DNA of 64,000 nucleotides. It comes from Nigrospora sphaerica (taxonomy: Eukaryota > Ascomycota > Sordariomycetes > Amphisphaeriales > Apiosporaceae). The stretch is from the NCBI GenBank assembly GCA_018287875.1, contig JAGVVL010000002.1, positions 186,001 to 250,000 on the forward strand. The letters are read 5' to 3'. The stretch's first letter is position 1; every line of letters begins with the position of its first letter. A program made the position numbers and the translations under genes. The notes beneath the pieces are model-generated. The model saw only the letters and a program-made list of their open reading frames with translations, was not told where the DNA came from and searched no databases. This document shows positions 50,330-64,000 of this stretch, piece after piece.

Positions 50330-50412
50330 GCCCGCTTGGCTTAGTGGTAAAGCGCATCACTAGTAAATACTCGGTTATGATGAGATCACTGGTTCGATTC
50401 CAGTAGTGGGCA
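50330..50412 (+). tRNA. tRNA-Thr(AGT) with 11-nt intron
   Basis: Acceptor stem GCCCGCT (50330-50336) pairs with AGTGGGC (50405-50411), one G-T wobble, discriminator A at 50412. D arm GCTTAGTGGTAAAGC. Anticodon stem CATCA (50355-50359) pairs with TGATG (50378-50382). The loop reads CT-AGT-A, then an 11-nt intron (50366-50376, AATACTCGGTT) at the canonical position 37/38, then A. T arm ACTGG-TTCGATT-CCAGT. The RNA polymerase III boxes A (TGGCTTAGTGG) and B (GGTTCGATTCC) are intact. The anticodon AGT decodes Thr ACU/ACC after A34-to-I editing. Confidence 0.93.
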
Positions 50413-50760: not shown

Positions 50761-51840
50761 CTAGCCCACGAGGGGCATTTGGTTGTTGGCGTAAGCCTGG
50801 ACAGCAACCCCTATCGCTTTCATATCCGGGTCATTGCCGTCGGACCAACCGGCCCTCGCCCCGGGCGAGGCGACGCCTTTCCTGACCAGCTCGACGGTTT
50901 CGAGTTCGCCTTGGGCGAGGCGGTCGGCTTCCCAGCGCTCGTAGGCGGCCCACCACCAGCGGTGGGTGACGCCGTCGCGGCCGCGATAGCCGGCGCGGCC
51001 GTCGGCGCCGACGCGGCGGGCCCAGGGCTTGTCGACGACGTAGTGGAGGCAGACGACGTCGGCGTCGTCGCGCCAGAGGTCGGCGTGCCAGTACCGCATC
51101 GTCTTGAGCGCGTTGTACTGCCAGCCGACGGCGTGCCAGCGCCCGCGGAAGAAGTGCGCCAGGAAGTCCTGATCCGGGAAGCGGAAGCCGGCGAGTAGCG
51201 ACGCCGGCGCCGCGCCGAGCGCCTCGCGCATCCGCCGCCAGAGCGCCGGCGACGGACGGAACACGAACATGCCGCCGTTGAGGAGGTGGTGCGTCGGCTG
51301 TGCGGGCACGCCCTCGGCGCCGGCGCCCGACGAGGACGCGTGGGCGCAGTGCGCCGGCGTCCAGTCGGCCGGGGCCCAGGGGTCGCCGTCGCGGTTGCAG
51401 ACGCACGCGTGGCTGGCGGCGAGGTGGTCGGGTTCGAGGCGGGGGGCCCAGCGGGCCAGGAGGGCGTCGGCGTCGCCGCGCACGGTCATGTCGGCGTCGA
51501 GGTAGCAAGCGGCGGCGTAGCCGTCGTTGGTGAGCGCCTCGAAGACGCGCAGCTTGGTCCATGTGTCCTCGAAACGCTCGGCGATCAGCGCCGCCTTGCC
51601 GGCGGTCCCGCCCGGCGGCAACAGCGCCTCGCACTGCCGCAGCACGAGCTTCTGCCGCGGCGCCTCGAGCTCGAGCGCCCGCACGGCCTCGGCCGACAGC
51701 TGCGCCGTGTACAGCACCACCAGCGGGTACCGGTTGCCCTGCCGGCGTAGCGTGTCGGCCAAGATCACGACGCCGGCCAGGTAGCTGGCGCGCGTCACCA
51801 GCGTCGCATAGGCGTAATTTCCGAGTGAACTGGAGGACAT
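50761..51840 (-). CDS. Glycosyltransferase family 8 (glycogenin/galactinol-synthase-like), 359 aa
   Basis: Retaining nucleotide-sugar-dependent glycosyltransferase with a GT-A fold. ATG 51840 was chosen because residue 8 onward (NYAYATLVTRASYLAGVVIL) is the GT8 N-terminus; an open frame extends to 51981 without family resemblance. Metal-binding DxD is at D115-A-D117 (CYLDADMTVRGD); later motifs are HLLNGGMFVFRPS (about 185-197) and LHYVVDKPW (about 265-273), matching the GT8 pattern H-x4-KPW. No TM segment or signal, so probably cytosolic. It is the outermost gene on this side of the mys-like group, next to the O-methyltransferase and in the same orientation. A role in glycosylating a mycosporine is an inference from position; glycogen or raffinose-type metabolism is the alternative. 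Confidence 0.87.
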   Translation of the reverse strand: MSSSSLGNYAYATLVTRASYLAGVVILADTLRRQGNRYPLVVLYTAQLSAEAVRALELEAPRQKLVLRQCEALLPPGGTAGKAALIAERFEDTWTKLRVFEALTNDGYAAACYLDADMTVRGDADALLARWAPRLEPDHLAASHACVCNRDGDPWAPADWTPAHCAHASSSGAGAEGVPAQPTHHLLNGGMFVFRPSPALWRRMREALGAAPASLLAGFRFPDQDFLAHFFRGRWHAVGWQYNALKTMRYWHADLWRDDADVVCLHYVVDKPWARRVGADGRAGYRGRDGVTHRWWWAAYERWEADRLAQGELETVELVRKGVASPGARAGWSDGNDPDMKAIGVAVQAYANNQMPLVG

Positions 51841-52618
51841 CGTGGGATTAGAGGCTGTCGGTTTGGATTCACACCTTCGGGAAACTCTGGTGGAACGACC
51901 GGCTCGCTTATTAGTAACTCCAAGCCGCTGAAGGTCGTATCGCTGCGGGCAAGGATGCCGAAGGCTACTACCCATGGACACTGAACAAGTGATGATTCAT
52001 GACCCGACGGTGCGGACATCATCCCATATGGTCAAGATTATCGTGGCATCCCGGGTCACGAAGCTAGAGAGCGCCCCTTAATCCACACCCCCTGTCTGCT
52101 AGTCGTTAGGCGCCTTTGGTAACAATGGTCAGCAGTAGTGGCGTGGATTACCCTGTCTCAGCAAGCTCGAATGGCAGATAGTGACATTGTGCTGGAATTT
52201 GCCGATCTATAGAACCGAATTTCGCACTATTGGATTCGCCAGATAGGAATGGTCCCATGGCACTTACGTACTACATGCAAGGCATGGATGCGAGGGCCCG
52301 TCTCAACCTCCCCCGTCGACCCATGCACGCGCATACACACCTACATTATTTCCCTATATGACGAGCCGCCGTTGCTAGTGCGGGGCTCGGATTGTTCCTA
52401 ACCGACCACGTCTGCTCTAGAACTCAAGATAGAGCCCTCCGTTGCGTACTGTGTTCATCCATCACCAAATTATCTAGGCAATGATAGCAGCAGTGGCATT
52501 GGCCAATTCAAAAACAGCAGAGCTCCCCCAACGAAGTCGCCACCAATAGAGGCCCTCCCGTGAGCATGGCTACTCGCTCAGGCTCCATTTGCCACGCAGC
52601 AGCAGGAAACTTTTCGTT
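51841..52618. other. Gap between GT8 and O-methyltransferase
   Basis: No gene seen. It holds the GT8 promoter and the O-methyltransferase 3' region. Confidence 0.45.
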
Positions 52619-53578
52619 TCACGTCTCGACGCCAACACATCGCGTGATTTCCAGAGCATCCTGTTCCCGTTAGTCACCGAACCGAGCTCGTCCTTTCTGT
52701 GAGCGACTTACGGGCACGCCGCTGGGCTCCCACCCCTCAACGAACTTGCTTTCGTAAAGAAGCTCCGGTCTTCCCTTGGGTTCTTCTTTCGCCACGCTTT
52801 TCCGCTTCTCCTCCACTGTGCTGCGGACGTACTTGAGGTAGAGCGGGTTTCCCGGTTTGACGACTGGGGTCGCGGTTAGCAAAGAGCCGCTGCCCTCGCT
52901 CTTGAAGGGGGGACCGGGCTCACCATTGTCAGCGGCGTAGACGGAGCCGGGGCCGACAAGGCGCAGGTCCTCACATAGCTTCAGGTCGGCCGTGTAGGCG
53001 GGCTTGTAGTGGTCGAGGAAGAGCAGGTCGATGCGGGCGAGGGCGCCGGTGCGATGCAGGCGGCGCAGCGAGTCGGCGCTGGGGCCGACGACGACCTTGA
53101 CGACGTCGGCGAGGCCGGCGAGGTCGACGAGCAGGGTGCTGACGGCGGCGAACTCGGGGCTCCGCTCGAGGCTGTAGTAGCGCCGCCCGCCGGCCGCCCG
53201 CACGGCGGCCCCGAAGGCGATGGCCGAGTAGCCCACGTAGCCGCCGAGCTCGACCATGACCTGCGGCTTGACCTCGCCGATGAGCTCCACCACCGTCCGC
53301 GACTTGTACTCGCCCACGTTCATGAGGTACTTCTGCGTCCGGCCGTACTCGTCGATGGCGGCGAGCACCCCGGCCGGGTTGCCGCGCATCTCCTCGAGCC
53401 GGGCGTGGTTGTACACGAAGTGCAGGAGCGCGATCTCGCGACCATCGTCAAACTGCACCGGTCGTCATTAGCCGCTGCCATTGCCAGCTAGGGTCCCAAA
53501 TGATAACTGGCTCACATAAATGTCCTCCTGCGGTTGGTAGGCCTGCCCCTCAAAGTCAGTCCGTTTCAAAGCCCCCAT
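52619..53578 (-). CDS. mysB-like: COMT-type O-methyltransferase, mysB-like, 281 aa
   Basis: SAM-dependent methyltransferase; in mycosporine pathways the equivalent enzyme O-methylates demethyl-4-deoxygadusol to 4-deoxygadusol. Exons: 53516-53578, 52712-53452, 52619-52660, totalling 846 nt, all joins in phase 0. The first exon (MGALKRTDFEGQAYQPQEDIY) ends at GTGAGC. The last intron has GTAAGT, branch GACTAAC and acceptor ACAG, and gives the tail VPDALEITRCVGVET; reading through would give an unrelated tail. Motifs: SAM-binding VELGGYVGYSAIAFG (88-102), acidic YYSLERSPEF, and the metal/catalytic LLFLDHYK (about 164-171), as in catechol O-methyltransferases. It is divergent from the cyclase gene across 1.2 kb. 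Assignment to mysB rests on fold plus neighbours. Confidence 0.85.
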
Positions 53579-53636
53579 GATGGCGTTTTCTTCCCGTCTC
53601 GTCGTACCAGATGTTCGCTTCAACCATGACCGAAAA

Positions 53637-54039
53637 AGGGGAGACAGAGCAGCGAAATACCCCTCTGCTCGCGGGCCGAGACCTCATATCTCGGGCGCCG
53701 CGATTGCCGGAGAGCTATGCCAACCCCGCCTTGTGCCTAGACCCCGCAAGGGGGGACGTCGTGATGACGGACGCTTGAGGAAGCTTACGCTAGTCTCGGT
53801 GGGCTGGCATGATCTTATTATTAGCGAGAGGGGTTCGGCGGATTCCAGATAAGCGAGGGCGGGATCGTGGGCTTCATTGGTCTCTCGGAATCCCTGTCCC
53901 CTTGCTTCCCTTGACCCCCCCTGTGCGTGGCAACATCTGATTGTCACATTCCCATCCCCCTATCGCCTTCTCCCATAGTGGCCCTCCGATGTGATTCTGG
54001 ACCCGACTAGTCGACCCCGCGGGTCAGACGCCAAAGGGG
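53637..54039. promoter_or_regulatory. Cluster of stress-response elements (AGGGG/CCCCT) in the divergent promoter
   Basis: Seven STRE cores in about 400 bp: AGGGG at 53637-53641, 53749-53753, 53829-53833 and 54035-54039; CCCCT at 53898-53902, 53918-53922 and 53957-53961. About one would be expected by chance at equal base composition, somewhat more in GC-rich DNA. STREs are bound by Msn2/4/Seb1-type stress regulators. They sit between the mysB-like and mysA-like genes (whole gap 53579-54806; no gene found in it). Confidence 0.45.
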
Positions 54040-54806
54040 GACTCACGGGCTCGAGCTCCGAGGACTTCGTCTAATACGACCAGGCACCATCGAGGGTACG
54101 CCGACGGCGGCGTGCCTGCTGGGTGACCTTCTAGTCGGTTGGGGAACCCTATTCCGAAGATACTTTCCGTTTTCCGAGATATCTACTTCCTAGGGTACAT
54201 GAGGTACGTCCGTTGCCTCCCTTTCAGGGCAGTACCGGCGAGTTGACATAGCAATACTTTGGATGTAAAGCGCCCGAGCGTGGACTTCTCACTCGCTACC
54301 CTCACGCCTTTACTTCTCACGTTATCCTCACGTGCTACCATGAGGCGTTTCCCTTCTCGCCAGCACATTCGTGAACGCAGGCGACGACGAGAGTTACCAG
54401 ATTTGTTCGTAGTTTGTACTGGTCTGGCGTACTCGACGTCTATCGTACTCTAGCCAGTAGCTATTTTGGAAAACTGAACCCAATTTTGGAAGGCAGGGGG
54501 TTCCCGCTGGTTGCTGCCAGTTACAGCGTTGTTGATTTTAACGACAACGCGTCATGGCGAGTTGACCCGAATGTATACGGCACTTACCCGAGTCAATACC
54601 AGTCGTTACTAGAGACGCCACGAACGACTGTACTGAGCGGCTCATGTCCTTCGCTGACATCTTGTGATCGGGGCCAGTCATCACCCGCACACCTCGACAT
54701 CTCCATTACTTCTTGTTCTTGTTTTCCACAGTCCATTTGTCGTGTTCTCGCGTTTTCCCCGTTCGCAGCATAGAACCTCCTCCGTCCTCTCCACATTCCT
54801 TTTGCC

Positions 54807-56162
54807 ATGTCCGACCTCAAGGCCAGCGTGAAGGAGACGCCGCAGGGGTTCCACGTCGAGGGGTACGAGAAGATCGAGTATGACTTCGCCTTTGTCGACG
54901 GCGTCTTCGACGTGGCCAACGCGGCGCTCGCCGAGTGCTACAAGAAATGGGGCCGCGTGCTGGCCGTGACGGACAAGAACGTCTACAGCCTGTACGGGGC
55001 CCAGATGAAAAAGTACTTTGAGCACCACGGGCTGGCGCTGCAGGTGCACCAGACGGCCATCGGCGAGAAGGCCAAGACGATCGAGACGTTCCTGAGCATC
55101 TGCGACTCCATGACCGAGTTCGGCATCATCCGCAAGGAGCCCGTCCTCGTCGTCGGCGGCGGGCTCGTGACCGACGTGGCCGGCTACGCGTGCGCCTCGT
55201 ACCGGCGCAACACCAACTTCATCCGCGTGCCGACGACCGTCATCGGCCTCATCGACGCCAGCGTGAGCATCAAGGTGGCCGTCAACTACGGCCGCTACAA
55301 GAACCGGCTGGGCGCCTACCACGCCCCCGTGCACACGTTCCTCGACTTCACCTTCCTGCGGACGCTGCCGGTGGCGCAGGTGCGCAACGGCTTCGCCGAG
55401 CTCATCAAGATCTCGTCGTGTGCGCGCCTCGACGTCTTCGACCTGCTGGACCGCTTCTGCGAGCGGCTCATCGAGACCAAGTTCGGCCGGGCCGACGGCG
55501 CGGCGGCCGAGGTGCGGCGCGCGGCCGACGTCATCAACCGCGAGGCCATCTTCGAGATGCTCAAGCTCGAGTCGCCCAACCTGCACGAGATCGGGCTCGA
55601 CCGCGTCATCGCCTACGGCCACACGTGGTCGCCGCTGCACGAGCTGATCCCCGAGACGCCGCTGCGGCACGGCCACGCCATCTCCATCGACATGGCCTTC
55701 ACGGCCACGCTGGCGCGCCACCGCGGCCTGCTCGCGCCCGCCGAGCACCAGCGCCTGCTCGACCTCTTCTCGCGCGCCGGCCTCGCCATCGACGACGCGC
55801 AGTTCGACGACGACGTGCTCGACCGCGGCACCGCCGCCATCCTCAAGACGCGCGACGGCCTGCTGCGCCTCGCCGTCCCCCATCCGCTCGGCCATTGCAC
55901 CTTTGTTAACGACGCCTCGGCCGACGAGCTCAAAGAGGTCCTGCGCCAGCACAAGGCCGCCTGTCAGCGCCAGCCGCGTCAGGGCGCCGGTCTCGAGGCC
56001 TACGTCGACGGCAGCGACACCGGCTACGCCGACCACGCAAGCGAGGCCCAGCCGGGCGACGGCGAGACCCTCATGGACAAGTCCAAGAAGATGGCGACGG
56101 GCCACGCCAGTGCCAATGGCCTGGTGAACGGGCACAGTCACGCTATCAAAGCCGAGGCGTAA
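54807..56162 (+). CDS. mysA-like: Sugar-phosphate cyclase, demethyl-4-deoxygadusol synthase (mysA-like), 451 aa
   Basis: 3-dehydroquinate-synthase-fold cyclase; DDGS enzymes convert sedoheptulose 7-phosphate to demethyl-4-deoxygadusol, the first step of mycosporine synthesis. Intronless. NAD-binding GGGLVTDVAGY (about 117-127); RVPTTVIGLIDASVSIKVAV; NRLGAYHAP. Zinc ligands: Glu198 in FAELIKI, His272 in YGHTWSP and a His in LRHGHAIS (288-290). The text is close to cyanobacterial DDGS proteins as I remember them (RNGFAELIKI, LDRVIAYGHTWSP, HGHA, TRDGLLRLAVPHPLG). EEVS is the nearest alternative; the adjacent mysB- and mysC-like genes argue for DDGS. The C-terminal 60 residues (Gly/Asp/Ala-rich) are outside the conserved fold. 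No organelle signal. Confidence 0.88.
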   Translation: MSDLKASVKETPQGFHVEGYEKIEYDFAFVDGVFDVANAALAECYKKWGRVLAVTDKNVYSLYGAQMKKYFEHHGLALQVHQTAIGEKAKTIETFLSICDSMTEFGIIRKEPVLVVGGGLVTDVAGYACASYRRNTNFIRVPTTVIGLIDASVSIKVAVNYGRYKNRLGAYHAPVHTFLDFTFLRTLPVAQVRNGFAELIKISSCARLDVFDLLDRFCERLIETKFGRADGAAAEVRRAADVINREAIFEMLKLESPNLHEIGLDRVIAYGHTWSPLHELIPETPLRHGHAISIDMAFTATLARHRGLLAPAEHQRLLDLFSRAGLAIDDAQFDDDVLDRGTAAILKTRDGLLRLAVPHPLGHCTFVNDASADELKEVLRQHKAACQRQPRQGAGLEAYVDGSDTGYADHASEAQPGDGETLMDKSKKMATGHASANGLVNGHSHAIKAEA

Positions 56163-57040
56163 AGTCGGGCCGCCCAAGGGAGGAGAAATGGTGGCGCAGG
56201 GTTTTGAAAAATGAGTGGAAAGTTTAGCATAGCCATAGAAGTCTTGCACGGTAATATGCGCCAGTAAAACCCACACGTCTGACATGCCGCCATGTGTCAG
56301 ACCATAAGCATACACTCTAATCTGCTGGGCCATTCGCTCCGTGTCGTAGTCGTACATCCGTGTCTTAATCATAGTCTTGGAAGCTGGCGCATGCCAATCC
56401 TGCAGCCGCTCTCGAGTCGTATACGTATTTTGAGCCTCATGCCAATGCCGCCGTCACTGTCTGCGGGGATGAAAAAGCAATTCGACCTACCCCCCCTCGT
56501 CTCGTGCCCTCGACCCCTGAAACGTCGGTCGCCCTTCTAGAGGGGGGGGGGGGGGGGGAGCAAGCGAGATCAACGGCCGACGGCATCTCTTTTACATGTT
56601 CTGTCGACATTAATGATTCATAACGAAAGCCTGCATGTCCCCGTCAATAGGGGCTCCCGCAGTCGCACCCAATCGGCTACGCGTGCAAGGATACATCCCT
56701 GCCGGCACGCTTCGGCTGCCTCGCCGGCGATGGCGCTACCGCTAGGCCCAGGAAGTCGTTAGACACCCGCCCCGATCGCTTGCCACAAGCCCCTGGTCCC
56801 ATCGGGGCGTGTCCCACTTGGATCGATCCGATTCCCGTTTTCCCGTGCGTGGGGATGCTCGTGAATACCTGCCGGGGTGGTAAGCGGGGTACAAGTGACA
56901 GCTGCCACGATTGATTTCCCTTTCGACCTACGCAGTGACATTCCTCGCCTTGTAAGTTCTCACAGCTCCTCGGAAGCTCGAGCTATCGAACCCTTCAAGC
57001 TGCCCTCCTCCCCGAGGAGAATCGGACAATTCAGAACAAC
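56163..57040. other. Gap between cyclase and ATP-grasp genes
   Basis: Contains the cyclase 3' region, the G17 run and the ATP-grasp promoter. Short frames at 56292-56540 and 56759-56941 have no support. Confidence 0.45.
56542..56558 (+). repeat. G17 homopolymer
   Basis: An uninterrupted run of 17 G between the cyclase and ATP-grasp genes. It could form a quadruplex, but the run length is also prone to sequencing error. Confidence 0.9.
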
Positions 57041-58657
57041 ATGGCGCGTTCAGAATTCCAAGACACAGCCAAGGCGCTGGGCCTCGTGGCCCTCAGCCTC
57101 CTGCTGCTACCCGTGTCTCTCGCCGTCCTCGCCCTGGGCCAGCTCTCCCTCCTAATCTCCCGGTCCCCTCCACCCCCAAAGGAAGCCCTCGCCGACCAGG
57201 GCCCACGGCGCACCATCCTCGTAACGGGCGTCGGCATGGCCAAGGGCCTGACGCTGGCGCGGGCCTTCCACGCGGCCGGGCACCGCGTGCTGGGCGCCGA
57301 CGTAGAGGCCGGGGGCATCCCGTGCCCGGGTCGCTTCTCGCGCAGCCTCGCGGCCTTCTACCGGCTGCCGTCCCCTGGGGCCCACGGCGGCGGCGCCGCC
57401 TACGCGGAGCGCCTCGTCGACGTCGCGCGCACCGAGGGCGTCGACCTCTGGGTGTCGTGCTCGGGCGTCGCGAGCGCGGCCGAGGACGCGGCGGCCAAGG
57501 CGGCGATCGAGGCGCGCACGCGGTGCCGCTGTGTGCAGCTCGGCGGCGCCGCGACGGCGCGCCTGCACGAAAAGGATGCCTTCGCGGCGGCCGCGGCGGC
57601 CGTGGGCCTGCCCGGGCCCGAGACGCACGTAGTGGCATCGGCGGGCGCCCTGCTCGCCCTCCTCGACGCCGCGCGCGAACGGGCCCCCACCCGCCGCTTC
57701 CTGCTCAAGCCCGTCGGCGTCGACGACATCCACCGCGGCGACCTGACGCTGCTGCCGCGGCCAACGCGCGCCGAGACCGAGGCCCACGTGCGCGCCCGCC
57801 TGCCCCGGCACGAAGACGGCGGCGGCGGCGACGACGACGCCCCCCCGCGCTGGATCGCCCAGCAGTTCGTCCCCGGCGGCGCCGAGTACTGCTCGCACGC
57901 GCTCGTGGTGCGTGGCGCCGTGCGCGCCTTCGTTGCCTGTCCCAGCGCCGAGCTGTTGATGCACTACGAGGCGCTGCCCGCCTCCTCGGCGCTGTCCCGC
58001 GCCATGCTCGCCTACACGCGCGAGTTCGTCGCTCGGAGCCGCGGCGCCGACGACGCCGGGGGCGACAAGGAGGCCTGGACGGGCCACCTCAGCTTCGACT
58101 TCATGATGGCCGACGGCGAGGAGGAGGAGGGGGAGTACAACGACGAGGGGGGGGGCGCCGTCGACGCTACGGGCTTCCGCCGCCGCCTCTACGCCATCGA
58201 GTGCAACCCGCGCGCCCACACGGCCGTGGTGCTGTTCGCCGGGGACGCCACCACGACACGCGCCCTCGTCCGGGCGTACCTTTCGGTCCTCGGTGACGAC
58301 AATGACGACGAAGAACCCCGGGCCATCAACGGCGAGCGGCCCGTGCCGCCCGTGGTGACGCCGCCCGCGCGCGCCGTGCCGCGGTACTGGGTCGGCCACG
58401 ACCTGGTGGCGCTCGTCCTGCAACCGGCCTGGGCCTGGGCGACGGGCCGGGCGGCGGGACGGGACCTCGCGGCTGAAGTCGCCGCCTTCGGCACCCACGT
58501 GCTCGTCTGGCGGGAGGGCACCTGGGCGGCGGAGGATCCGGGGCCCGCCCTCGCCCTGTACCACGTGTACTGGCCCCTAACCATCCTCAAGGCGTGGTGG
58601 GAGGGCCGCCGTTGGAGCCGCGTGAATGTTAGCACCACCAAGATGTTTATGTGCTGA
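57041..58657 (+). CDS. mysC-like: ATP-grasp ligase, mysC-like, membrane-anchored, 538 aa
   Basis: MysC enzymes use ATP to couple 4-deoxygadusol with an amino acid (glycine in cyanobacteria) to give the mono-substituted mycosporine. Intronless. Residues 12-42 form one or two hydrophobic segments (ALGLVALSLLLLPVSLAVLA), so the enzyme is probably tethered to a membrane. A preATP-grasp nucleotide fold follows (ILVTGVGMAKGLTLARAFHA, GHRVLGADVEAGG). ATP-grasp signatures: RFLLKPVGVDDIHRGDLTLL (about 218-237), SFDFMM, and the metal-binding YAIECNPRAHTAVVLFA (about 383-399). Insertions are Asp/Glu/Gly-rich (EEEEGEYNDEGGG). Same orientation as and 0.9 kb downstream of the cyclase. It could accept an amino acid other than glycine; this cannot be read from sequence. 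Confidence 0.87.
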   Translation: MARSEFQDTAKALGLVALSLLLLPVSLAVLALGQLSLLISRSPPPPKEALADQGPRRTILVTGVGMAKGLTLARAFHAAGHRVLGADVEAGGIPCPGRFSRSLAAFYRLPSPGAHGGGAAYAERLVDVARTEGVDLWVSCSGVASAAEDAAAKAAIEARTRCRCVQLGGAATARLHEKDAFAAAAAAVGLPGPETHVVASAGALLALLDAARERAPTRRFLLKPVGVDDIHRGDLTLLPRPTRAETEAHVRARLPRHEDGGGGDDDAPPRWIAQQFVPGGAEYCSHALVVRGAVRAFVACPSAELLMHYEALPASSALSRAMLAYTREFVARSRGADDAGGDKEAWTGHLSFDFMMADGEEEEGEYNDEGGGAVDATGFRRRLYAIECNPRAHTAVVLFAGDATTTRALVRAYLSVLGDDNDDEEPRAINGERPVPPVVTPPARAVPRYWVGHDLVALVLQPAWAWATGRAAGRDLAAEVAAFGTHVLVWREGTWAAEDPGPALALYHVYWPLTILKAWWEGRRWSRVNVSTTKMFMC

Positions 58658-59911
58658 TCCCGGCGGACGGTTGTCTCCGACTTCACATATGGTTGGGGGC
58701 TTCAATGCTCGTTACGGTTAACCTCCATCCTTGTCTGGGAGTGGCGTGGCTTGGAGGCGCTGAGCGCACGCAGCTCTTCGTGTGGCATGTTTTTAGCATA
58801 GCATGGGGTTTGTTGCGATCTCCTGCTGGTTTTCGGGAAAGATAGGGAAATTGCTAAAACAGGTAACCCCGTAGAAGGCAAAAATCAAACCAGATTGATC
58901 CATTCCAACGGGGCCCCCTTGCTTCTCAACAGGTCCGGGGTAAGCAGCTTCTCGTCCTCGACACCGAAAACCTTCCTCATCCTCTCCTTCTCGAATTCCA
59001 GGTCAGGCTCACTGATAATCTCGGAGTCGCTCCCCACCCGGTAAAAGTGACTTTGTGTCCTGATTCCTTCACTCCCGCTCTCCCTTGCCAGGGTATAAAT
59101 TGGTGGCACCGGTCCGTACAGGACTTCTCCTGCCATCAATCCGCTAACGTAGCAAACGCTGACAAGTGACCATTCATTTCTTGGCGGCCCGGCGTTGGGA
59201 CGAATCAGCAAAGGCCATGTTGAGCCTAGAGGGAAGAACAATCTGTCTCCCTTGTGGACTTCTTGGTGACTGAGACCGATATACCCATCTTCGGTCCGGA
59301 ACAACGCCCGCTCTCTCCACGCAGCATACGGCCCGTCCATCTCGTGTACGAGGTACGCAGCCCCGAGCACACGGCCTAATGCTGTGCCCGCTTCCGAAGA
59401 GAGCAGGCGGCGTAAATCTCGACGGCGCTCTTCTTTTTCTGCTTGAAGATCGCTCCGGGGGTAAATTCTCGTGCAGGAGTACTCGCCTCCGGTGATGGCA
59501 CAGACGAGGGCATGCCCGAAGGATAGGTTGCCATCTGCGTACTTCCCCTCCATGCGATCCGTGTGCACGAAACGCCAAATGGCGTCCGTCGCTTTGTCTA
59601 TCGTTCCGCCTAGCGGCTCGACGGATTCGACTTTGGACGCCATCATGCCTGCCAAGCGCAAGGTTCTGGTCCCAGGGAAATTGAAAAATGGGTAATTTGC
59701 ACTTGTGGCCACAGCCTCGATCGCCAGATAGCCAGCGCTGGTTTCCGTTGACCAATCGGGAACCCAACTTGGTAGATTCTCCATTCTGTCCCGTGTTAAC
59801 TCGCATGAATGGAAGAGAGTGAGGGTTTGGGATGTCTGGATGCAGTGTTTCGTGGCTGCTGTGTAAACCTCGGGAACAGAGAGATTGTAATTGACTTTAA
59901 GCTGATGTATA

Positions 59912-59956
59912 ACGTGGATGTCATACGAGTGGGCCAGTCATACGAGTGGGCCACTT
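59912..59956 (+). repeat. Left terminal inverted repeat (45 bp)
   Basis: Begins ACGTGGATGTCATACGAG and contains the 17-mer GTCATACGAGTGGGCCA twice in tandem (59920-59953), a likely double transposase-binding site. Confidence 0.9.
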
Positions 59957-60017
59957 CTAAGCACCTTCACGACAAATCAATCAATTACTTAACCACAACG
60001 CCTTAAATTAATTCAAA

Positions 60018-61673
60018 CTAATCGGAATCCGACTCTCCAGATGTTTCTACGTCTATTTTATATGTTCGCGCATTATGCCCAGCCGTTCCGCAGATACCAC
60101 ACCGCTGAGCGCGCGGTTCTGTCCTCGTCGCCCGACCACTCCTTATACACGTTTCCTCTCTTAACTGTGTATCGATATCCTTTTGATCTAAAAGATCTTA
60201 AGCCTCGCCAATCTCGAGTGTTCCTCCTTGCTGTAGACGCGTCTTTTTCGCTCTCCGACGTTTTGCGAGGCTGGAATTCGCCTCTCGAAGGGTCTTATTC
60301 TCCGCCTGGAGAAGAGCGACCTCGTGCATCATCGCTATTGCACCCTTAGCAAACTGGTCCACTGCTGATAAAATCGGTGTTGGAGAGCTTCCTTAGTGAC
60401 GGCGGACTCGATTCTTAATAAAATCAGTCTGCGAAGTCGCCTTAATCGGGTTATGTGGCGTCTGAGAGGCCCATGGGATACTCGCGGCCGGAAGGCTTCT
60501 AATAGGCGAAGGTGTTAATAACTTCATATCCAGCTTTGCGAGCACTCTATCCGGGTCTAGAGGGACTAAACCGGCTCCAGCAAATCCAGCTTTAACGTTA
60601 TTAAATGTGAAAACCTTTAAAAAGGCTGCTTAAAAGGCAATTAGAAACTCGGCCTTAGTGATGTGGTTAACGAGTGACTTCATAAACCCTTCGATTTCGC
60701 GACTGTACGCCCACTTTAATAGGCTGAAACACCCCACGTCAAGTGGCTGGAGTAGATGCGACGAGTGCGGAGGTATAGAGACCGTCACGATGTTCTTCTC
60801 TTTACAAAAAGCCTGGAATTCGGCCGAAACGTGGCTCTTGTGCCTATCAATCACTAACAGACGATATCGGCCTGTTGCGCGCGACGAGGTGTGTTTATCG
60901 AAATGCCGAATCCAGTCCAGGCCGGTCTCGTTATCTGTCCATCCATTCTGGGTCGGTTTGATTACCCAATCGCGCGGGAGAGTGCTGTCGGCGTACCAAT
61001 TAGCAAGGTGGTAGGCGCCTTTTACCACGATGAACGGCGGGACACACCAGCTGTCGGAATAGACGCCCTAGATCACGGTAACCCATTCCCGATTGCCAGG
61101 CTGGACCTTTTTTCGCTTTCCGCTCCGATCGGCGCCAGTCACGACTATCGAGGACGTGATTTGGCCTATCATAAAGCCGGTCTCGTCGAAGTTGTAGATA
61201 TCCTCGTCCCGGATGCCGTACTTGGCCTTCAGGTTCGCGAAGAGCGCGAACCAGCCCGCGATTTTTTCAGGATCTTCGCAGAGGGCCCTCTGATAGTCGT
61301 ATGCACGCGAAAAACGCGTCCGGAGGTCTCGTTATCGCTTAACGAAGTTCGCGGCCCAACACGTCCCGACACATGACGCGTCGCGCGACGCGGTAATAAC
61401 ATTCGCCATATCTTCCACATCGTGCAACCGCGGCGCAAATCCTCGTGAATCTAAGTCGAGGATGTATCGGACAAGCGTCTTCTCTTCTAATTCGGTAAGA
61501 CGAGTATTGTTGGCGCGTATATCGCGTCTAGCGTGTTTTCCGTTCATTCTGCGTTAGAGGGTAGTTCGCGAGATGTTGTAGATAGCCGCCGCTTATCGGC
61601 AGCTAAGTTTAGGGTTCTTCTTAATCGCCTGGATCGCTAGAATGATTCTAGACTCGCTAGAAGATTGTTCCAT
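60018..61673 (-). pseudogene. Fot1/pogo transposase, stop-interrupted (552 codons)
   Basis: ATG at 61673 to TAG at 60018-60020, with no net frameshift (1656 nt) but several TAA/TAG codons, for example two within the first 45 codons, where CAA fits (CR*AAAIYNISRTTL*RRMNG). Domains: an N-terminal helix-turn-helix (psq/CENP-B-type); the DDE_1 catalytic core, with YNFDETGFMIG containing the first Asp and LLVIDRHKSHVSAEF containing the second; then PPHSSHLLQPLDVGCFSLLK; and a C-terminal knuckle-like CGICGTAGHNARTY in which the final Cys is Tyr. The changes are CpA-to-TpA type, as expected from RIP. Confidence 0.88.
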
Positions 61674-61726
61674 AACTATTGGTTAAGTTAAAGGCAATTG
61701 AAGTTGGAAGAGTTGAAATAAGTGGA

Positions 61727-61771
61727 AAGTGGCCCACTCGTATGACTGGCCCACTCGTATGACATCCACGT
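61727..61771 (-). repeat. Right terminal inverted repeat (45 bp)
   Basis: Exact reverse complement of 59912-59956, with the same tandem 17-mer. Confidence 0.9.
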
Positions 61772-62872
61772 TAGCGTCGTCTCCTAAGATAGCAAACATG
61801 CCATAAACTCGGTCACGCGGGTCGGTACACTTCTTGGCCCCGGTTATAAACCTCAAGTTTGACCACGGTATCGGGTTAGGGTATCCTATGCTGTAGATTG
61901 TCGTTAAATTCGAAGTTCGATAAAACGATGCGAAGTAGAATGCCGCCGTGATAAATGTGGTCCATTCGGCTTCGGAAGAGCCGCAAAATATCACGGACCG
62001 TTGCGCAAGGTAAACTTCCTGGTGAACCCATAAACGATCGAACCAATCTCTTTTAACGAGTCTGTGAATGGAGGTTTGTAACCCTGTAGAGTTCTGTACA
62101 GTTTGCCAAAGTTCGCCGAAGGAGTCGGAGCGTCTCACAATCAGCGCCGCCCAGTCGATTTCGAGATGTTCTCCTAGGTTCTGTAACAACTCCATGGCGA
62201 ATGCGCTGCCGTCGCGCTCGGTACCAAGCCATACGATAACCCGATCTGCATCGCGATAGATTCGGGTCATGAATGGGACTTGGTGGCTCTTCTCGTCGTT
62301 ATCCTCCTGATTCATGCACAGTGCGTCGACCCATAGAAGTTATGTGGAGGTGGTGTCGCGAATACGTCGGAGAGCATCTGCCAGGTTGTCTCTAACAGCT
62401 ATGGCTTACGAGCTTCCGTCGTTGGCATCGACGATGACACGCTGGTTGGGTTCAGACGTCCCCCATGCGTATGATAAGGCTTCATATTCGACCTGCGGGT
62501 TATTTTGCAGATCGACGTGGTCGAGACGGATGTGGATCTCATCGGATTCCTCCCCGGGGGCCAGGGTCAGGAGCCGTATTTCGTGTTGTCCCAGAGCTCG
62601 GTAAGCGTAGGGGATGGCAGTAGGGTGATTGAGATGGTCTGAGACAAGTGACATGCTGGCCTGCGTGACGGGATTGTTTTTGAGACGATTAGGAACCATT
62701 CTCAGAAGATGGGCTGTGATGATGGAGGAAATTGCCAGTAATTGAGTACGTCAGCGGATTGCGTACTCTTTTCAACCATCTATTGTCCAAACGGGCGTGC
62801 AATACAGCCCTGTCTCGTGTCAGGCTCCCTCCCTACAGGCTTGGGTCATTGCACATTACCGTATTAGCCGCT

Positions 62873-64000
62873 TCATGGAGATAGGCCCTCATCCGACCAC
62901 AGCCACCGCCACATGCGCAGCAATCGTTCGCGATCCAATGGCTGTACCCCACCAAGTGTCTGTGACCCCGCCTTGCTAACTAACAGGTCAAAAGATGGTG
63001 ATGTTCCCTGCTTGGATGTTGAGCCTTCGGAATATCTGCGCCTCCACAACTCCAACAGCCCCTGCGACGAGTGCGTCGATTTTACCTCGGCAAGGCTTTC
63101 CTCCAACCTCCGGAACCACTGCGGCGGCGGCACCATTTCGACCACACCGCTCCCTGCTTCCTCGACGATCATCTCCAGCATTTGGTGCCAAGTAGGCGTT
63201 CTGTGTGGGTTCAGGACATGCAGCACGGGGAGTTGCCCCGCGGGGCTCTGCCCGTCTGGCCGGGCCCCATCCAACGCCATCTCTAACACGATTTTGGCGG
63301 CCACGTCGACAGGCAGCCAGTTCAGCGGTTCGTCCCCGAGGTCCGGCAGGCAGCCCAGGAACTTGGCCGTCGACAGCAGTAGCGGGTACGCCTCGCTGGC
63401 GTTCCAGATGCCGGCGCGGTTGGCGAAGAGCTGGCCTACGCGGATGATGGCCACGGGAATCCCCCGCTGCTCGTGCGCCGCGGTGCAGATGCGCTCACCC
63501 ACCCACTTGGAGCGGGCGTAACCCAGCGGCGCGGCGTGGGCGGGGTCCGTCGAAGGTGCCTCGGCGATCGGATGGGCCGGCGTCTTCGTCGTCGCCGCCC
63601 CCGCATGGGACACGGCCGCCGTCGAGCTTACGAAGTAGAAGCGGGCGCCCGCGGCGGCGGCTAGGTTGATAAGGTTGCGCGTGGCGGCGAGGTGCGGCGT
63701 GAAGGAGGCCAGGCGCAGGGTGAAGTTGACGGCCCAGGCCGCGTGGATGACGACGGTGGTGTCGCGGAGCAGGCGATCCCTCGCTTCGGCGGCGAGGCCG
63801 AGGTCGGGGTCGCTGAGGTCGCTGGGGAGACACACAAGCTTAACTTCGGCGGCGGCGGCGGCGGCGTCGGGGCATAGGAAGCCAGTTAGACGGCGCTGAG
63901 AGAGCGCCTGGGCCACGCGGTCGTGAGCGGCGAGGGGCGAAGTGACCCGCACTAGGCAGTAGATCCTGCGCACGTGGGCATCTTTAAGCAGTTCGTGCAC
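62873..64000 (-). CDS. C-terminal thioester-reductase domain of an NRPS-like enzyme, partial
   Basis: The open frame runs off the window's right edge, so only the last 376 codons are seen. It is an extended short-chain dehydrogenase of the NAD_binding_4 (thioester reductase) type: HELLKDAHVRRIYCLVR follows the expected Rossmann glycine motif (outside the window); later LRDTTVVIHAAWAVNFTLRL; VSSTAAVS with the catalytic Ser/Thr; Y161-ARS-K165 (YARSKWVGERI, numbering within the visible part); then PVAIIRVGQLFANRAGIWN and DEPLNWLPVDVAAKIVLEMA. In fungi this domain ends A-T-R proteins (including Lys2-like reductases) and some NRPS/PKS, releasing the carrier-bound acyl chain as aldehyde or alcohol using NADPH. 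Upstream A and T domains are expected but not visible. With the mys-like neighbours it could reduce an amino acid carboxyl to an amino alcohol. Confidence 0.85.
   Translation of the reverse strand: MHELLKDAHVRRIYCLVRVTSPLAAHDRVAQALSQRRLTGFLCPDAAAAAAEVKLVCLPSDLSDPDLGLAAEARDRLLRDTTVVIHAAWAVNFTLRLASFTPHLAATRNLINLAAAAGARFYFVSSTAAVSHAGAATTKTPAHPIAEAPSTDPAHAAPLGYARSKWVGERICTAAHEQRGIPVAIIRVGQLFANRAGIWNASEAYPLLLSTAKFLGCLPDLGDEPLNWLPVDVAAKIVLEMALDGARPDGQSPAGQLPVLHVLNPHRTPTWHQMLEMIVEEAGSGVVEMVPPPQWFRRLEESLAEVKSTHSSQGLLELWRRRYSEGSTSKQGTSPSFDLLVSKAGSQTLGGVQPLDRERLLRMWRWLWSDEGLSP

Follow-up and report, generated by a model that had tools for sequence, protein, structure and literature searches.

A candidate fungal mycosporine gene cluster with its own reductase and glycosyltransferase in Nigrospora sphaerica

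In a stretch of 64,000 nucleotides from the Nigrospora sphaerica assembly GCA_018287875.1 (contig JAGVVL010000002.1, C12:186001-250000; the whole stretch is called the window, and a window coordinate is the contig coordinate minus 186000), we identified a mycosporine gene cluster that probably carries its own tailoring enzymes. The genes of a 2-desmethyl-4-deoxygadusol synthase (DDGS), an O-methyltransferase, a MysC-type ATP-grasp ligase, an A-T-R reductase and a glycosyltransferase of family GT8 are all intact at the locus, as judged from their sequences. We consider it rather likely that these enzymes would make a mycosporine-amino acid, reduce its carboxyl group and place a sugar on the new alcohol, where the amino acid, the order of the steps and the sugar are what we infer. 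Mycosporines are natural sunscreens; those of fungi occur as amino alcohols and as glucosides of these, and the first functionally tested fungal cluster consists of three core genes (PMC10057719; this and the other papers cited by number are represented by the parts of their text that were available). The conserved cluster described here gives candidate genes for both steps, reduction and glycosylation.

The cyclase is encoded by a single open frame (54807-56162, plus strand, 451 aa) and belongs to the Pfam family DHQ_synthase, which by itself would also suit a 2-epi-5-epi-valiolone synthase (EEVS) or a 3-dehydroquinate synthase (DHQS), with a valiolone-type or shikimate-type product. This alternative is scarcely credible in view of the comparisons made here. 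In phmmer searches, the protein matched 5tpr with an E-value of 2e-144 and 485 bits, versus 1.2e-69 and 238 bits for 4p53. The PDB names of these two entries are 3-dehydroquinate synthase and cyclase; we take 5tpr to be the DDGS of Anabaena, presumably of cyanobacterial origin, and 4p53 to be the EEVS ValA. A tree of 27 rows was built from the window protein, 11 of 120 fungal matches, 10 of 80 bacterial loci, four PDB rows and the AROM protein of the same genome. Here, the window protein lies inside a fungal clade (support 100/100), and this clade groups with 5tpr and the MysA-like proteins of bacteria (96/99). Outside this grouping stands 4p53, the single row on a long branch that represents EEVS; the DHQS proteins, including AROM, form a separate group (100/100). 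The cyclase also agrees at 23 of 30 positions with the DDGS signature of Phaffia (PMC10057719), shares 79% identity with Apiospora among the matches listed, and has no second DDGS beside it in the genome apart from AROM. Going by the tree, the cyclase is a member of the DDGS/MysA branch, apart from DHQS and from the one EEVS tested, so that the DDGS-like character which an earlier note on this DNA had ascribed to it was upheld. With this placement, and with a relative of the window's ATP-grasp present in each of the 80 bacterial cyclase loci, DDGS is the identity best suited to the core, and an EEVS or DHQS identity was rejected on the tree and on these bacterial neighbourhoods.

The O-methyltransferase gene, on the minus strand, was joined by a splice model from exons 53578-53517 and 53452-52670 and encodes 281 aa (PF13578, E 1.7e-11; PF01596, E 9e-09). 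The ATP-grasp gene (57041-58657, plus strand, 538 aa) gave no Pfam match, and a sequence search of the PDB with its product returned nothing beyond a weak match to a short-chain dehydrogenase/reductase. Its assignment is thus based on the ATP-grasp fold of its structural model and on bacterial neighbourhoods. Known structures that resemble the model (mean pLDDT 76.6) are those of biotin carboxylase, PurK, PurD and RizA, and the motif IECNPR, common to bacterial ligases, is invariant in 16 aligned proteins. No second ATP-grasp of MysC type was found in the genome, where the gene is single-copy.

For the neighbourhoods, 80 bacterial loci were collected by the cyclase alone (by their titles, one from Candidatus Melainabacteria and the rest actinobacterial, which makes 5tpr the one further cyanobacterial point in the cyclase tree), and a relative anywhere in a locus was counted. 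All 80 hold an ATP-grasp relative and 65 an O-methyltransferase relative; in L018 the O-methyltransferase match lies about 4 kb away on the opposite strand. Bacterial mysA-mysB-mysC loci hence share the three core families with the Nigrospora locus but differ from it in the remaining enzymes: a GT8 relative occurs in 0 of 80, and a carboxylic-acid-reductase-like match to the A-T-R reductase in three of 80 (26-27% identity, E 1e-17 to 1e-22). These three loci are from Rhodococcoides (L048, L050 and L051, first 2 kb), where some 3 kb separate the carboxylic-acid-reductase-like gene from the mysA-like one, perhaps as an independent pairing or by chance. By these family assignments, the O-methyltransferase, DDGS and ATP-grasp genes are the classical mycosporine core, and the distance from the first to the last is 6.0 kb, in agreement with the earlier note, which had put the three within 6 kb.

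The two further enzymes that the earlier note had read at this locus, a GT8 enzyme and an enzyme resembling nonribosomal peptide synthetases (NRPS-like) that ends in a reductase, were both recovered. The GT8 gene (50761-51840, minus strand, 359 aa; PF01501, E 3.8e-07) adjoins the O-methyltransferase gene. Of the A-T-R reductase gene, the C-terminal R part lies inside the window (62873-64000, minus strand; PF07993, E 1.7e-33; TIGR01746), and the proposed start is at C12:252292 (window-equivalent 66292), 2.3 kb past the window end. In the assembly the gene is complete, with an A, a T and an R domain, and its long exon has no stop; across the whole gene, Pfam finds AMP-binding, AMP-binding_C_3, PP-binding and NAD_binding_4. 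The reductase is followed, beyond the window, by an aldo-keto reductase gene (C12:252937-253449 and 253572-253904, plus strand, 281 aa; PF00248, E 1.4e-23 on exon 1) and then by a fungal transcription factor gene (C12:254027-256543, minus strand; PF04082). MysE has an A-T architecture with a thioesterase. A MysE-like ligase for a second amino acid was rejected because a reductase domain forms the end of the NRPS-like enzyme, which bears out the difference from mysD and MysE that had been noted before. Among the genes annotated near the core there is no MysD, no dedicated MysD search having been made.

That GT8 and the reductase belong to the cluster, as the earlier note had proposed, and are conserved members of it in this part of the Xylariomycetidae, is supported by their location in relatives. 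We compared the best 120 homologues of each protein (rows with a contig: GT8 118/120, DDGS 120/120, reductase 120/120) and counted two proteins as lying on the same contig when the longest-contig size and the species name were equal. Where a species is named in both of the lists compared, the two genes are on one contig in 18 of 21 cases for GT8 with DDGS, in 27 of 30 for reductase with DDGS, and in 17 of 18 for GT8 with reductase. Random placement would give about 1.2, 1.5 and 1.4, respectively, a descriptive expectation that assumes 45 Mb genomes and independent species, which these species are not. All three genes lie on one contig in 14 other assemblies, and one of these contigs is just 19,050 bp long and holds homologues of DDGS, reductase and GT8 with 86%, 78% and 77% identity. 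Among the matches listed, Apiospora proteins are the closest named relatives of cyclase, reductase and GT8, consistent with a fungus near Apiospora (assembly size 51.6 Mb, 33 contigs).

Locus-tag numbers agree with close linkage. For DDGS and reductase, they are 009726 and 009729 in Apiospora marii, and 12759 and 12763 in Pestalotiopsis fici; further close pairs of tags are 004452 and 004448 in A. saccharicola, g784 and g783 in Xylaria curta, and 070570 and 070590 in Anthostomella. GT8 and reductase carry 001695 and 001700 in A. hydei and 5996 and 5994 in Fusarium zealandicum, and GT8 and DDGS carry 013398 and 013399 in Neoarthrinium. Moreover, in gene models of three Xylariales, namely X. curta, Whalleya microplaca and Daldinia bambusicola, an ATP-grasp part (44-49% identical to the window's ATP-grasp) is fused to the reductase; since these models run one gene into the other, the two are immediate neighbours there. 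GT8 was also found with the reductase where DDGS is not among the best 120, in A. hydei, A. phragmitis, F. zealandicum, Paramyrothecium and three further contigs. In a reductase tree of 78 rows, in which Fusarium is thinned by roughly two thirds and a further set of reductase rows is missing, all 29 DDGS-linked rows fall into one part of 51 rows; the other part, of 27 rows, is mostly hypocrealean. Altogether, the shared contigs and the adjacency of ATP-grasp and reductase argue for reductase and GT8 as cluster members.

Turning to function, the P-x-Y-H-G-G motif of the A domain is invariant in 16 of 16 aligned proteins, the T domain has the serine of GVDS, and the R domain keeps T-G-A-x-G-x-L-G and Y-x-x-S-K in the 16 aligned proteins. 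Among solved structures, thioester-reductase domains such as 8aep come nearest to the R domain, and the PDB search with the A domain gave weak matches only. In A domains for amino acids, an Asp binds the alpha-amino group of the substrate. In a weak match to linear gramicidin synthase (E 0.054), the window enzyme has His at the Asp of the FDIS motif. Because of this replacement, acids that lack a free alpha-ammonium group should be the preferred substrates of the A domain; a mycosporine-amino acid, whose nitrogen sits in the enaminone, would therefore suit it, and free glutamine would not. The missing Asp and the adjacent aldo-keto reductase would fit a reductase that acts on the amino-acid carboxyl.

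The aldo-keto reductase, spliced to 281 aa, matches 3f7j with E 3.2e-58, is close to YvgN and to 2,5-diketogluconate reductases, and has an intact barrel and a catalytic tetrad as read by eye. It is a possible enzyme for the last reduction step, and the transcription factor a possible pathway regulator. Elsewhere in the genome, at C12:4397489-4404969 (L087, L088; outside the window), a second trio consists of an A-T-R reductase, an aldo-keto reductase and a Zn2Cys6 transcription factor, with order and strands matching those behind the cluster and with no mycosporine genes. Identity to the cluster copies is 35% for the A-T-R reductase, 33% for the aldo-keto reductase and 22% for the transcription factor (E 1.5e-4). 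As the second trio repeats order and strands, A-T-R and aldo-keto reductase appear to be a working pair; as it lacks mycosporine genes, such a pair can also act outside mycosporine synthesis. No fused gene model among the listed homologues holds an aldo-keto reductase part. Two Apiospora GT8 proteins (P0007 and P0011) are entered in their source as 'NADP-dependent oxidoreductase domain-containing protein', which may echo an aldo-keto reductase in their own neighbourhood.

Members of GT8 have a GT-A fold with a DxD metal site and an HxxxxKPW motif. In the window protein and its homologues, DAD and HYxVDKPW are invariant (27 aligned proteins). The structural model (mean pLDDT 73.7) is glycogenin-like, with glycogenin ranked first by Foldseek (E 1.5e-12). 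By sequence, the best PDB match is an alpha-galactosyltransferase, and several homologues are source-named galactinol synthase or inositol 3-alpha-galactosyltransferase; the Nigrospora genome itself holds one closer GT8 relative (42%) and one weak one. Motifs and fold are thus shared with known members of the family such as glycogenin, galactinol synthase and Skp1 alpha-galactosyltransferase, from which the window enzyme differs in its predicted small-molecule acceptor and in its place inside a biosynthetic cluster. As GT8 is a retaining family in CAZy, the enzyme is predicted to yield an alpha-hexoside, where galactose is also possible. For Ascochyta fabae, a soluble UDP-glucose:mycosporin glucosyltransferase was reportedly described in 1983, going by the title. 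The compound from Dothiora is glutamicol-5'-O-beta-D-glucopyranoside, in which the sugar sits on a hydroxyl of the reduced amino acid, linking reduction and glycosylation (PMC6272891). Glucosides of mycosporine-glutaminol and -glutamicol have been reported from Phaeotheca triangularis, Hortaea werneckii and Aureobasidium pullulans (PMC7760651), and close GT8 homologues among the matches listed come from Neophaeotheca triangularis, H. werneckii and Aureobasidium melanogenum. Such homologues in fungi named as glucoside makers would fit the reading of a glycosylated mycosporine.

We thus propose the following pathway. DDGS and the O-methyltransferase would convert sedoheptulose 7-phosphate into 4-deoxygadusol, to which the ATP-grasp ligase would couple an amino acid; glutamine, glutamate and serine are the probable candidates. 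Next, the mycosporine-amino acid would be activated at its free carboxyl group by the A domain and carried by the T domain, and the R domain would release an aldehyde. The aldehyde would be reduced to the amino alcohol by the aldo-keto reductase or by a second R-domain reduction, and GT8 would finally transfer a hexose from a UDP-sugar onto the new hydroxyl, with a predicted alpha-linkage. In its full form, i.e. a genetically complete route to reduced glycosylated mycosporines in which A-T-R and aldo-keto reductase work on the finished mycosporine-amino acid and GT8 gives alpha-hexosides, we advance this proposal tentatively and hold it for quite conceivable, if slightly on the doubtful side.

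Several observations weigh against a cluster with its own tailoring enzymes. At the Nigrospora locus, core and reductase are parted by HET-type and transposase sequences, and most DDGS rows do not show the linkage: among the best 120 DDGS rows, a reductase from its own list of 120 is on the same contig in 28 and a GT8 from its list in 20, and the unlinked rows include many lichens, Dothideomycetes and Aspergillus. Apiospora arundinis is an exception in all three pair comparisons, H. werneckii and Teratosphaeria nubilosa are exceptions for GT8 and DDGS, and Pyricularia oryzae and Xylariaceae sp. FL1272 for reductase and DDGS; since the rows of A. arundinis, Hortaea and Pyricularia pool several or many sequences, these three may mix strains. 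The aldo-keto reductase of the second trio is not the nearest genome relative of the cluster copy. The three core genes of Phaffia, when expressed in yeast, reportedly gave mycosporine-glutaminol without such a reductase, as assigned by co-migration in HPLC (PMC10057719). Unless this peak was a compound other than the alcohol or yeast supplies the reduction, the result speaks against any need for a reductase in the cluster. Finally, the reported glutamicol glucoside is beta (PMC6272891) and GT8 should give alpha, so that either the cluster makes a different glycoside or the Dothiora glucoside comes from another enzyme.

Taken at face value, the intervening sequences, the second trio and two Fusarium gene models that show other neighbours for the homologous reductase would allow reductase and GT8 to be independent neighbours of a plain three-gene cluster, serving other pathways. 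We regard this as very unlikely, because GT8, DDGS and reductase are co-located in many Xylariales and ATP-grasp and reductase are adjacent in three of them; a chance neighbourhood with the core was rejected on the same co-location. The HET-type and transposase sequences at 58885-62750 are thought to be later arrivals rather than pathway genes.

A different order of steps is conceivable as well, in which A-T-R and aldo-keto reductase would first make a free amino alcohol, e.g. glutaminol, that the ATP-grasp ligase then joins to 4-deoxygadusol. The Phaffia authors indeed state that their ATP-grasp enzyme incorporates glutaminol (PMC10057719), and the second trio, away from any mycosporine genes, makes another substrate possible. 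With His in place of Asp, a free alpha-amino acid is an unexpected substrate, though the alignment is the weak one given above (E 0.054). On balance, the amino-alcohol-first order seems unlikely to us, though it keeps some weight. A better, though still doubtful, prospect is that a reduced mycosporine is made with another end product, such as serinol from serine, a galactoside, or an aldehyde that reacts further. The sequence fixes neither amino acid nor sugar, the galactosyltransferase match and the galactinol-synthase-type names of the GT8 homologues point that way, and the reported beta-glucoside is ill-suited to a retaining enzyme (PMC6272891). Conversely, the top Foldseek match, glycogenin, is a glucosyltransferase, and close GT8 homologues come from Hortaea, Neophaeotheca and Aureobasidium, while glutaminol and glutamicol glucosides are reported from fungi so named (PMC7760651).

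The MYC cluster of Phaffia rhodozyma is among the closest known systems. There, according to the authors, 4-deoxygadusol is formed by DDGS and O-methyltransferase and is turned into mycosporine-glutaminol by the ATP-grasp enzyme; they assign glucosylation to a gene that is not part of the MYC cluster (PMC10057719). Its DDGS-OMT-ATPG arrangement resembles the Nigrospora locus in having the three core families within a few kb and DDGS and O-methyltransferase on opposite strands; in the text available it has no reductase, aldo-keto reductase or glycosyltransferase, unlike the Nigrospora locus. In most Hypoxylaceae, NRPS-like clusters related to mycosporine clusters have been described with products unidentified (Kuhnert et al. 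2021, PMC8403587), and many homologues of the window reductase on DDGS contigs belong to this family; the available parts of that paper name no amino-acid-reducing role, GT8 or aldo-keto reductase. The association between NRPS-like enzymes and mycosporine genes has hence been flagged before, whereas the roles for reductase, aldo-keto reductase and GT8 are a new proposal. Our literature search, which left subscription literature mostly outside, found no paper that assigns genes to mycosporine reduction or glycosylation. In Colletotrichum genomes, the accessible text of PMC4974774 reports no mycosporine cluster.

The same A-T-R architecture is found in Fusarium NRPS11, whose product is listed as not known in the part available of PMC3694855, and in other fungal adenylate-forming reductases. 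Among the matches listed, Fusarium relatives of the window reductase are 47-53% identical, with one F. poae entry named nrps11, and two gene models have other neighbours, unlike the Nigrospora cluster. By eye, the long reductase models of F. circinatum (P0337) and F. agapanthi (P0343) run into a regulator-like part, and one of the two also continues into an FAD enzyme. If the proposed pathway is true, an adenylate-forming reductase would have a role new for such enzymes, and both the missing reductase and the missing glycosyltransferase of fungal mycosporines would be identified. The cluster also makes it testable whether the alcohol arises before or after attachment of the amino acid, and its enzymes may be of use for making water-soluble sunscreens.

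Between core and reductase lie a frame without Pfam match that looks HET-like by eye (58885-59937, minus strand), a transposase fragment of 145 codons (60630-61067, minus strand; DDE_1, PF03184), a HET-domain gene (61683-62339, minus strand; PF06985) and a second HET-like frame by eye without Pfam match (62406-62750, minus strand). With at least 150 relatives elsewhere in the genome, the transposase fragment is the mark of an insertion that parts the core from the reductase. A tRNA-Leu is predicted by ARAGORN at 50330-50412, just upstream of the cluster. At the other side, outside the window and about 14 kb beyond the reductase start, lies a gamma-glutamyltranspeptidase gene (PF01019; L004:7852-9744).

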